Of a stretch of 64,000 bases of DNA, positions 35,708 through 40,585 are shown piece by piece (the first letter of the stretch is position 1; the number at the start of each line of letters is the position of its first letter). A model generated the notes under the pieces. That model ran no database searches. It had not been told where the DNA came from and saw only the letters and a list, made by a program, of their open reading frames with translations. The DNA is taken from NCBI GenBank assembly GCA_016933175.1, contig JAFGBK010000052.1, positions 1 to 64,000 on the forward strand, given 5' to 3'. The translations under genes were made by a program, and so were the position numbers. Source of the DNA: Candidatus Krumholzibacteriota bacterium. Its GTDB lineage: Bacteria > Krumholzibacteriota > Krumholzibacteriia > JACNKJ01.

Positions 35708-37273
35708 CTACCTCGCCGTGTCCGTGGCGCGGGTCTCGCGGATGACGACCACCTTGATCTCGCCGGGATACTCGAGCTCGCTCTCGATGCGCCGCGCGAT
35801 CTCGTAGGAGAGCGTGGCGGCCTGCTCGTCGTCGAGCGCCTGGGCGTTGACGACGATGCGCAGCTCGCGGCCCGCCTGGATGGCGTAGGAGGTCTCGACG
35901 CCGTGGAAGCCGTCGGCGATCTCCTCGAGCCGCTGGAGGCGTTTGACGTAGTGCTCGAGGGATTCCCGGCGGGCGCCGGGACGCGCGCTGCTGATGGCGT
36001 CCGCGGCCGAGACCAGCCAAGTGACGAGGTTCGTGGGTTCGATCTCCTCGTGGTGGCCGGCGATGGCGTTGACGACGACGGCGTTCTCGCCGTGGCGCTC
36101 GGCGATCTGCGCGCCGATGGCGGCGTGGGTGCCTTCCATTTCATGGTCCAGGGCCTTGCCGATGTCGTGGAGCAGACCGGCCCGGCGCGCCAGGGCGGGA
36201 TCGAGGTCCAACTCGGCGGCCATGAGCCCGCTGAGGGCCGCCACCTCGCGGCTGTGGGCCAGGGCGTTCTGGCCGTAGCTGCTGCGGTACTGGAGCTCGC
36301 CGAGGAGCTTGACGAGCTCCGTATGGACGCCGTGTACGTCCAGGTCGTAGAGGGCCTGTTCGCCGGTCTCGATCACCTTGCTGGCGAGGTCTTCGCGGGT
36401 CTTGAGGACGATCTCCTCGATGCGCGTCGGGTGGATGCGGCCGTCCGCGATGAGGCGCTCGAGGCTCAGACGGGCGATCTCGCGCCGGAAGGGATTGAAG
36501 CCCGAGAGGATGACGGCGCCCGGCGTGTCGTCGATGATCACGTCGACGCCCGTGGCGCTCTCGAAGGCGCGGATGTTGCGGCCCTCGCGGCCGATGATGC
36601 GTCCCTTCATCTCCTCGCCGGGCAGCTCCACCACGGACACCGTGGTCTCGGCGCAATGCGCCGCGGCGTAGCGCTGGATGGCCATGGTGATGATGCGCTG
36701 GCCTTCCTTCTTGGCCGCGCGCTCGGCCTCGGCCCGGAGGTCTTTGAGCCGGCGGCCGAAGTGGTGGCGTGCCTCCTCCTCCATGTTGGCCAGGAGCCGC
36801 TGCCGGGCGTCGTCCCGGGACAGGCCGCTTATCTGCTGCAGCCGCGCGTTCTGGTCCTCGAGGACGCGGTCCAGGCGCTCCTGCTCCTGCGCCAGCCGGG
36901 CGCGCTGGCGCGCCAGATCCTGGCGCGCGCGCTCCTGCTCGGTCTCGCCGCCGGCCAGGAACTCGGCCCGACGCGCCAGATCCTGGGCCAGGCGCTCCAG
37001 CTCCGCGGCCCGGCCGTCGAGTTCCTGGCGCTCCTGGCGCGTCTTGTCGTCGAACTCGCTCTGGACCCGCAGCCGCTCCTCGCGAGCGACCAGGTTCGCG
37101 TCGCGGCGCAGGCGCTCGGCCTCGCCCTGGGCATCGGCAAGGATGTCGGCGGCGAGCCGGCGCGAACGGGCCAGGAGCAGGCGCTGGATCAGGAATCCCG
37201 CCGTCGCCCCGATCAGGAGGAAGAGGAGGGCGGCCAGCAGGGCGCCCGGTGACAGGGAGAGAAATTCGGACAT
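35708..37273 (-). CDS. rny: Ribonuclease Y
   Basis: N-terminal TM and coiled coil, KH domain GRIIGREGRNIRAFESATGVDVIIDDTPG, HD domain ARRAGLLHDIGKALDHEMEGTHAAIG. Confidence 0.96.
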   Translation of the reverse strand: MSEFLSLSPGALLAALLFLLIGATAGFLIQRLLLARSRRLAADILADAQGEAERLRRDANLVAREERLRVQSEFDDKTRQERQELDGRAAELERLAQDLARRAEFLAGGETEQERARQDLARQRARLAQEQERLDRVLEDQNARLQQISGLSRDDARQRLLANMEEEARHHFGRRLKDLRAEAERAAKKEGQRIITMAIQRYAAAHCAETTVSVVELPGEEMKGRIIGREGRNIRAFESATGVDVIIDDTPGAVILSGFNPFRREIARLSLERLIADGRIHPTRIEEIVLKTREDLASKVIETGEQALYDLDVHGVHTELVKLLGELQYRSSYGQNALAHSREVAALSGLMAAELDLDPALARRAGLLHDIGKALDHEMEGTHAAIGAQIAERHGENAVVVNAIAGHHEEIEPTNLVTWLVSAADAISSARPGARRESLEHYVKRLQRLEEIADGFHGVETSYAIQAGRELRIVVNAQALDDEQAATLSYEIARRIESELEYPGEIKVVVIRETRATDTAR

Positions 37274-37311
37274 GGCGACCACCTGTCGCGCAGGGGGTCG
37301 GGCGCGGGCAG

Positions 37312-37497
37312 AAAGAAGAATTCCCCTCTCATTGCCGTGCTGGAAGCGTCAACATGGGCCTCGGACCCATGGTGGAGAGCCTCACGAGCGGTTCGGGAGC
37401 CCGGCGGCGGGCGCCCTCGGCCGTCCGGATTCGGCCCTCCATGACATCAGTGTTGGCTCAATTGTCAACTTCCCGCACGAGCACGGAAGGGAATCTT
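37312..37497 (-). ncRNA. ssrS: 6S RNA (predicted)
   Basis: ~186 nt rod: 5' AAGATTCCCTTCCGTGCT pairs with 3' AGCACGG...AGGGGAATTCTT, imperfectly paired middle; located just downstream of zapA, before rny. Confidence 0.72.
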
Positions 37498-37504
37498 CGG
37501 TTCC

Positions 37505-37534
37505 AGTATAGCAAGCGGCGCCCGACTCCTTCAA
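37505..37534 (-). promoter_or_regulatory. Promoter of predicted 6S RNA
   Basis: Minus: TTGAAG - 18 nt - TATACT with extended -10 (TGCTATACT). Confidence 0.6.
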
Positions 37535-37848
37535 GGCTCGTTGCCTGTCGTGTCGATCGCTTGCGCGTCTTCGTCTTCGAACAGCTTCAGCAGCTCGGCG
37601 GCCCGCTTCTCCGCGACCCGGCCGGCGTCCGGACCCCTGCCTCGCGTCTGCAGCAGCTCATCCGCGATGTTGAAGGCGGCCAGGATGGCGATGCGCTCCG
37701 CCGATATGGTGCGACCGCGCGCTGCGATGTCGCGCATGGTCCGGTCCACGTAGTCAGCGATCTCGCGGATGTACTTCTCATCCGCCTCGCCGCGCACCCG
37801 GTACTCGTTGCCATAGATGCTGACACGGACCGGTACGTTGGCATTCAT
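37531..37848 (-). CDS. zapA: Cell division protein ZapA
   Basis: VRVSIYGNEYRVRGEADEKYIREIADYVDRTMRDIAARGRTISAERIAILAAFNIADELLQ. Confidence 0.9.
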   Translation of the reverse strand: MNANVPVRVSIYGNEYRVRGEADEKYIREIADYVDRTMRDIAARGRTISAERIAILAAFNIADELLQTRGRGPDAGRVAEKRAAELLKLFEDEDAQAIDTTGNEP

Positions 37849-37883
37849 GCTGCCCTCCCCAAGAGGCGTGACCGGCGGCCCCG

Positions 37884-38165
37884 TCAGAGGTCCAGCTGGT
37901 CGAACTTGGACAGGATTGCGTCCACGCGCGTGCGGAGGCTCTCCAGGTTGGTGCCGTCCGCCTGGGATCCCCTGGAGTGGCTCTCGAGGGCCTCGAGATT
38001 CCGGCGCAGCTCGCCGTTGGCTCGTGACAGTTCGTCCACCCGGCCGGCGAGCTGCGACTTCGCGTCTCGCAGTTCCTTGTTCTCGGCCTTCATCGATGCG
38101 AGCTTCTCGAGCGCGGACGTTATCTTGCGCTCGAGGGCGTCGAGGTTCGATAGCTCAGAAGTCAC
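37884..38165 (-). CDS. ZapB-like coiled-coil protein
   Basis: LDALERKITSALEKLASMKAENKELRDAKSQLAGRVDELSRANGELRRNLEALES; adjacent to zapA. Confidence 0.6.
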   Translation of the reverse strand: MTSELSNLDALERKITSALEKLASMKAENKELRDAKSQLAGRVDELSRANGELRRNLEALESHSRGSQADGTNLESLRTRVDAILSKFDQLDL

Positions 38166-38188
38166 GGCTCACCTCTGGGTCCATGGTG

Positions 38189-40585
38189 TCACGAACGCAG
38201 GCGCACCTGCAAGGTCTTATCGAGGGCCTGCAGAACACGCGTCAGCTGCTTGTCCGCCTGCTTGTCCGTCAGCGTCCCCTCGGGCGAACGAAACACCAGG
38301 CGGACGGCGTAGCTGGCGTGCCCCGCCGGCAGGCCCTCGCCCCGGTAGACGTCGAAAAGTCCGCAGCGCTCCAGCAGGCGCCCGCCGGCCTCGGTGATGG
38401 TCTCGGCGACGCGCCGCCAGGGCAGCCCGTCGGGCACCAGCAGGGCCAGGTCGCGCAGCAGGGCCGGATAGGCCGGCAAGGGCGCGAAGCAGCGCTGTCC
38501 CGGGTCGCCGCCACCGGATAGATCCATCTCCAGGGCGAAGACGTCGCGCTTCTGCTTCAGGTCATGCATGAGCGAGGGCCGCAGCAGGCCGGCCCAGCCG
38601 ACGGCCGCCTCGCCGCGCAACAGGTGGACGGCGGCGCCGGGCACCAGGCAAGGCTCGTCACCCGCGTAGTCCGGCGCCAGGTCCGGCAGGAGGTCCTGCA
38701 GGCCCTGGACCACGCCCATCAGGTCGGCGAATCCCAGGGCCGAGGCGGGCTGGCGCCAGTGCGCCGGCTGGGCGTGCCCCGTGAGGAGGACCGCGAGGTG
38801 GACCGGCTCGTCGGGCAACGTCGTGCCCTCGCGACGCCGGTAGACGCGGCCGATCTGGTACAGGCGCAGCTCCTCCTGTCCGCGGTGAAAGTTGGTCTTG
38901 AGCACCTCCAGCATCCCGGGCAGCAGGGTACTGCGCATCTGGGCGTTGAAGCTGACGAGGGGATTGCGCAGGACCACCACGCGGCGGCGCGGATCATCGC
39001 CGGGCAGGCGCATGGCGTCGAGGCTGCGCGCGTCCATGAAGCTGCTGGCGATGACCTCCTGGCAGCCGAGCCCGCGCAGGGCCTCGTGGAGGCGGGCCGC
39101 CAGGCGCTCCTCGGGGAGCCGGGTCGCATAGAGGGTGTTGCGCACCCGGTTCTCCAGGGGCAGCCGGTCGTAGCCGTAGAGGCGCGCCACCTCCTCGATC
39201 AGGTCGATCTCCGCCGCCAGGTCGCGACGGAAGGAGGGCACCGTCACGGCCAGGCCGCCAGGCGCCGTCTCGGCGGGCAGCTGCAGCCTCTCCAGCAGGT
39301 GTTCGACGGTGGCCGCGTCCAGGTCCGTGCCCATCAGGCCGTTGACCTTCGCTACGCGCAGGATCACCTTGCGCGGTGCGGCGCGGCCGGGATAGTGATC
39401 GTCAGGTTCGGCGGCGACACGCGCGCCGGCCAGCTCGGCCAGGAGCCGGCAGACGCGGCGGCTGGCGAAGTCGGCCATCTCCGCGTCGGCGCCCCGCTCG
39501 AAGCGGTAGGCGGCGTCCGTTGTGAGGTCAAGGCGCTGGCGCGTCCCGCGGATCAGGCCGGGATGGAAGCAGGCGCTCTCGAGGATGATCTCGCGACTGG
39601 ACTCCGTCACCAGGGAGTTGGCGCCGCCCATGACGCCGGCGATGCAGACGGTGCGCTCGGCGTCGGCGATCACCAGGTCGGCGGGATCGAGGGCGACCTC
39701 CTTCTCCTCGAGGGTGACGGTCGTCTCGCCGGGCCGCGCCCGTCGGATGACGATCCGCCCGCCGGCCAGCTTGGCGGCGTCGAAGGCATGAAGCGGATGG
39801 CCCGTCTCGAACAGGACGAAGTTGGTCACGTCGACGATGTTGTTGATGGGCCGCAGGCCCATGCTCTCCAGCCGGCGGCAGAGCCAGGCGGGACTGGGCC
39901 CCACCGTCACGTCCCTCAGGCGCCGCGCCAGGTAGCGCGGACAGTCCGCCGGATCCTCGATGTCCACCGGTACGGGTTCCATCGCGGCGAGGGCTGCGGC
40001 GGGGATCTCGGTCGCCGGCAGGCGCAAGGGGCGCTCGTAGCGGGCGGCCACCTCCCGGGCGACGCCCAGGTAGCCCAGCTGGTCGGGGCGGTTGGGCGTC
40101 ACGTCGATGTCGAGGATCCAGTCCTCGTGTCCGAAGAGCGCCGACAGCGGCGTGCCCGGCGCCAGACCGCTTTCCAGGACCATGATGCCGTCGGCCTCGG
40201 CGCCGAGGCCCAGCTCGCGGACGGAGCAGATCATACCTTCGCTGAGGGCGCCGCGGATCTTGCCCTTCTTGATGACGGTGCCGTCGGGCAGCGGCTCGCC
40301 GGCCGGAATGATGGGCACCTCCTGGCCCGCCCGTACGTTGGGCGCGCCGCAGACGATGTCGCGCGGCGCCGCCTCGCCGATGTCCACGGTGCAGACGGAG
40401 AGCCGGTCGGCGTTGGGATGGCGCTCGCAGGTGAGGACGCGGCCGATGCGCAGTGGCGCGAAGGGATTGGGCCGGTGCTCCACGCCCTCCACATTAAGTC
40501 CCAGCATGGTCAGGTCCTCGGCCAGCCGGCGCGGCTCCTCCTCGATGTCAACGTACTGTCGCAGCCAGTCCAGGCTGATCAGCAT
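38189..40585 (-). CDS. pheT: Phenylalanine--tRNA ligase beta subunit
   Basis: MLISLDWLRQYVDIE, TPNRPDQLGYLGVARE, RPINNIVDVTNFVLFETGHPLHAFDA. Confidence 0.97.
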   Translation of the reverse strand: MLISLDWLRQYVDIEEEPRRLAEDLTMLGLNVEGVEHRPNPFAPLRIGRVLTCERHPNADRLSVCTVDIGEAAPRDIVCGAPNVRAGQEVPIIPAGEPLPDGTVIKKGKIRGALSEGMICSVRELGLGAEADGIMVLESGLAPGTPLSALFGHEDWILDIDVTPNRPDQLGYLGVAREVAARYERPLRLPATEIPAAALAAMEPVPVDIEDPADCPRYLARRLRDVTVGPSPAWLCRRLESMGLRPINNIVDVTNFVLFETGHPLHAFDAAKLAGGRIVIRRARPGETTVTLEEKEVALDPADLVIADAERTVCIAGVMGGANSLVTESSREIILESACFHPGLIRGTRQRLDLTTDAAYRFERGADAEMADFASRRVCRLLAELAGARVAAEPDDHYPGRAAPRKVILRVAKVNGLMGTDLDAATVEHLLERLQLPAETAPGGLAVTVPSFRRDLAAEIDLIEEVARLYGYDRLPLENRVRNTLYATRLPEERLAARLHEALRGLGCQEVIASSFMDARSLDAMRLPGDDPRRRVVVLRNPLVSFNAQMRSTLLPGMLEVLKTNFHRGQEELRLYQIGRVYRRREGTTLPDEPVHLAVLLTGHAQPAHWRQPASALGFADLMGVVQGLQDLLPDLAPDYAGDEPCLVPGAAVHLLRGEAAVGWAGLLRPSLMHDLKQKRDVFALEMDLSGGGDPGQRCFAPLPAYPALLRDLALLVPDGLPWRRVAETITEAGGRLLERCGLFDVYRGEGLPAGHASYAVRLVFRSPEGTLTDKQADKQLTRVLQALDKTLQVRLRS

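Follow-up and report, generated by a model that had tools for sequence, protein, structure and literature searches.

Lying between zapA and rny on the minus strand of the window (the whole 64,000-nucleotide stretch of DNA analysed) is a locus, at approximately 37318–37497, that on sequence evidence is a real, divergent 6S RNA gene (ssrS). 6S RNA is used by most bacteria to restrain their main RNA polymerase. The best explanation of the locus, to which we give a probability of about 97%, is that it is the single 6S RNA gene of this genome, with its own housekeeping-sigma promoter and an RNA product of about 180 nt that would mimic an open promoter. The gene, its structure, conservation and linkage, and a promoter-like site are demonstrated here.

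At Rfam gathering thresholds the window yields tRNAs only and no 6S RNA, and a whole-genome search with the 6S family RF00013 at its gathering threshold gives no match, both of which are threshold effects. Once the threshold is lowered, the best-scoring Rfam family in the zapA–rny region is RF00013, which aligns over its full length (model positions 1–187) to minus-strand positions 37495–37318 with 33.2 bits (E-value of 5.1e-5 over all 4227 families; gathering score of 46.4). Taken alone, this match is suggestive. PyrR206, flavi_FSE and P5 also gave weak matches in the region, each under its own cut-off and with E-values of 0.3–9.9, and were rejected.

The identity as 6S is settled by a covariance model of relatives' 6S RNAs, R1, since it recovers the window. 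Built from 27 6S genes, all passing RF00013 gathering and 5 drawn from contigs of Syntrophobacteraceae and Nitrospirae, with the window and its family left out, R1 scores the locus at 87.7 bits (E-value of ~1e-23), matching 178 nt at 37495–37318 with ends identical to those of the RF00013 match. The 6S candidate that the initial annotation had placed between zapA and rny is thus supported by both models, and the Infernal search with RF00013 that it had proposed does return a full-length match, though one below the gathering score. A whole-genome search finds a single R1 copy in the 3.45-Mb genome.

The RNA is spread across the phylum, with R1 matches in 77 of 80 genomes. R1 detects 6S in 56 of 58 relatives (40 of 40 among good-quality genomes), and RF00013 exceeds its cut-off genome-wide in 52 of the 58; it also exceeds gathering in the zapA–rny space of all 27 same-class loci from other families (L003–L029). 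Within the window's own family, whose four genomes constitute the entire sample of its order, RF00013 passes in none and R1 finds the RNA in three, one of them (L002) with 72.5 bits. Default annotation misses the window's 6S, since the RNA has diverged in this order until its score no longer reaches the Rfam cut-off. The new part is small: the 6S of this order lies under the cut-off in all three genomes possessing the RNA, standard annotation overlooks it, and the Rfam family could be widened with these sequences. Inconsistent annotation of ssrS after zapA, conceivably from sequence divergence, has been described before in beta- and gammaproteobacteria (PMC7641849). In genomes G020, G041 and G060, R1 also gives weak matches antisense to a few 6S genes, as expected of a long hairpin RNA.

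The predicted fold of a 194-nt segment has a minimum free energy of −94.9 kcal/mol (z = −5.4), and none of 200 dinucleotide shuffles is equally stable. Closing the structure is a long interrupted stem, of which the 5′ arm (AAGATTCCC...CCGTGCT...GGAAG, 37469–37497, minus strand) pairs with the 3′ arm (CTTCC, AGCACGG and GGGGAATTCTT, 37316–37346, minus strand), the latter being followed by a T-rich tail and identified from the sequence, the fold, R1 and the pair comparison. In the predicted fold AAGATTCCC (37497–37489) pairs with GGGGAATTCTT (37326–37316), CCGTGCT with AGCACGG, and GGAAG (37473–37469) with CTTCC (37346–37342), so that all the pairing arms proposed in the initial annotation for the RNA ends are paired. 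The terminal arm (GGAGGGCC...GGCTCTCC, 37374–37440, minus strand) corresponds to helices 3–6 of the class model and is likewise present in the predicted fold. The same annotation had seen a GC-rich centre as in 6S RNA; strong central GC-richness is there, as a property of this genome, whereas the class-wide centre is an open bubble with a terminal arm. Folds are stable in all three members of the window's family, and when the strands are folded alone, alternative pairs partly close the central bubble.

Closing stem, central bubble and terminal arm are all supported by covariation in the window and its relatives. Across 51 sequences, changes on both sides are seen in 28 of 39 pairs and 92.6% of cells hold standard pairs, counts taken from an alignment fitted to the model structure and so biased towards it. 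Sliding the partners by one to three columns reduces the paired cells to 37–47% and the covariation score to 0.058–0.127, against 0.483 observed, a gap that is not explained by the alignment fitting; no shuffle reaches any of the observed values. Both-side changes occur in 12 of 18 closing-stem pairs across the class and in 15 of 19 pairs of helices 3–6, and 36 of the 39 model pairs are canonical in the window. Compensatory changes in the terminal stem, which the initial annotation had proposed to look for, are found within the family itself: at pair 11/213 the window has U-A where both other members have A-U, and pair 1/222 reads G-U, A-U and U-A in the three. The GGAAG/CUUCC helix belongs to an inner closing-stem helix found in most of the class, for which native partners average −8.4 kcal/mol and between-family swaps −5.3 kcal/mol.

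On the 5′ strand of the central bubble (37442–37468, minus strand) is TTGAGCCAACAC, the predicted template of the product RNA (pRNA), which aligns to the Rfam consensus CuGAgCCgAaa. The template motif GAGCCAACAC is present in the window, the template strand of its family reads UUGAGCCAACAC, and the GCCAACA core of this strand is near-invariant across the class (alignment A2). Aligned with E. coli 6S, in which we take the pRNA start to be U44, the window would initiate opposite C37452, giving a predicted product 5′-GUUGGCUCAAUUGUC... that begins near 5′-GUUGGCUCAA.

Facing the template is a 3′ strand that differs among families. It reads GGUUCAA in family f6 and mostly GGUUCAG in f4, and can there pair with (U/G)UGAGCC; the window's family instead has GGCCCAU at the corresponding stretch, with an A-C mismatch to the template, and forms a strong hairpin (in the window CATGGG...CCCATG, 37353–37371, minus strand). 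A similar hairpin occurs in L002 and L142, the 3′ strands of the three family members folding alone with −14.0 (window), −11.7 and −9.5 kcal/mol. E. coli 6S has a known 3′ stem-loop at about nucleotide 140, which has been linked to the release driven by pRNA (PMC10406553).

Upstream of the RNA is a σ70-type promoter (37505–37534, minus strand) comprising a −35 element TTGAAG (37534–37529), an 18-nt spacer and a −10 element TATACT (37510–37505), the latter preceded by TGC to form an extended −10. The promoter, already read by the initial annotation, is confirmed in the sequence and is the sole promoter-like match in 500 bp (37200–37700; 0.0 expected from shuffles), ending 7–9 nt upstream of the predicted RNA 5′ end (37498–37495). 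Its −35 element does, as had been noted, overlap the end of zapA, at the last codon and the stop codon (37533–37531). A TATACT-like box lies 7–14 nt before the RNA in L002, L142, family f2 and most of f6; none is evident before 6S in most of families f4, f5 and f7, and 6S in these may therefore come from the zapA transcript.

The anatomy of the window's 6S fits the mechanism described for 6S RNAs, which mimic an open promoter when binding the σ70 holoenzyme and are freed from it when pRNA is synthesised (PMC10406553). Judging by the 6S family, the gene would be expressed from the promoter overlapping the end of zapA as an RNA of about 180 nt, which would fold into the long interrupted closing stem, central bubble and terminal arm and so resemble an open promoter. 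By homology, it would bind the housekeeping holoenzyme of RNA polymerase at its active site as cells slow, and 6S would be released when the GAGCCAACAC strand is transcribed by the polymerase into a short product RNA; the freed opposite strand would then fold into the CAUGGG...CCCAUG hairpin.

Upstream of 6S is zapA (37531–37848, minus strand; Pfam PF05164, E-value of 2.7e-21), with ZapB encoded further upstream, and downstream is rny, encoding RNase Y (35708–37282, minus strand; Pfam PF12072 (RNase_Y_N), PF00013 (KH) and PF01966 (HD)), followed by YmdB. The longest rny frame starts at GTG 37282; ATG 37273, preceded by an AGGTGG ribosome-binding site, is the likelier start as judged from the sequence. 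The RNA ends only about 40 nt before the start of rny, and a search for an intrinsic terminator in between was negative.

Linkage of 6S to zapA has been published for beta- and gammaproteobacteria (PMC7641849), and the present results extend it across a phylum sampled mostly as fragmented genomes. 6S directly follows zapA in the window and in all seven families checked, and zapA precedes 6S in 20 of 20 additional regions read. The suggestion of the initial annotation, a conserved zapA–ssrS–rny context, holds as far as the zapA linkage and a common rny neighbour go, but rny is not universal. RNase Y was found in 49 of 58 related genomes, ZapA lies upstream of rny in nearly all loci examined, and rny follows 6S in family f4; in sampled f2 and f5 genomes (L144–L147, L154 and L156) and in genome G003 of the window's own family (L142), all of which keep zapA–6S, rny was found neither near 6S nor by protein search. 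At L147 the gene after 6S resembles ymdB by eye. No description of the zapA–6S–rny order was found in the literature searched, in which coverage of subscription journals is thin.

With its 3′ end so close to rny and no intrinsic terminator found between them, the RNA might be read as belonging to rny, as its attenuator or structured 5′ leader (an autoregulatory target of RNase Y, for instance), with no more than a resemblance to 6S. This is very improbable: the element remains after zapA where rny was not found (f2, f5 and G003), it has the length, architecture and pRNA-template motif of a 6S RNA, and R1 and RF00013 agree. A bolder arrangement, in which 6S and RNase Y are regulated together in this lineage, with 6S as the leading part of a joint 6S–rny transcript from which RNase Y itself excises it and with a preformed 3′ hairpin that alters release from the polymerase, is unlikely, being disfavoured by the presence in the genome of an RNase E/G gene (G000:C62:37671-38480) and by the persistence of 6S after zapA where rny was not found.

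Stable folds are common at high GC, and a long inverted repeat or terminator-like structure could arise by chance in GC-rich intergenic DNA; the z-score relative to dinucleotide shuffles and the phylum-wide conservation with covariation leave this reading a negligible probability, and the independent R1 match refutes it. An Ms1-type RNA, which would bind core RNA polymerase and not the σ70 holoenzyme, cannot be told apart from 6S by overall shape alone, Ms1 being structurally related to 6S (PMC9130861). The position after zapA is nevertheless that of proteobacterial ssrS (PMC7641849), sister families score 52–91 bits with RF00013 and the pRNA-template motif is kept, so that an Ms1-type identity is extremely improbable.

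The 6S gene of the window is closest in kind to E. coli-type 6S/ssrS (RF00013), with which it shares length, closing stem, central bubble, terminal arm, the GAGCC pRNA-template motif, a site right after zapA and a promoter of its own. It differs in scoring below Rfam gathering, in being followed by rny and not by ygfA (FAU1) or EVE, in forming the strong CAUGGG/CCCAUG hairpin from its 3′ bubble strand, and in a template register (GAGCC–GGUUC in some sister families) weakened by the A-C mismatch. Within the same class, the 6S RNAs of sister families share the post-zapA locus, the GCCAACA core and the outer-stem AUUCCCU...GGGGAAU, and pass Rfam gathering whereas the window's family does not. On Nitrospirae and Syntrophobacteraceae contigs (L057, L053, L063, L031 and L032) 6S also precedes rny in the same orientation, at L057 with zapA directly before it; unlike in the window, the distance to rny there varies between a few hundred bases and about 2 kb. 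The underlying biology is as expected, that of an ordinary regulator in a group that has been little studied.

Many loci of families f3 and f7 (L003–L029) have a GC-rich hairpin, often ending GGGGATTT, between zapA and 6S, about 40–80 nt upstream of the RNA; TGTTGG, complementary to part of the template GCCAACA, occurs upstream of 6S in 9 of 22 f3 and f7 loci, too few for it to be kept as a meaningful motif. No such upstream element occurs in the window's family. Plus-strand open reading frames of 277, 449 and 542 amino acids lie antisense to rny, 6S and zapA within 35903–38397 and look like by-products of high GC.
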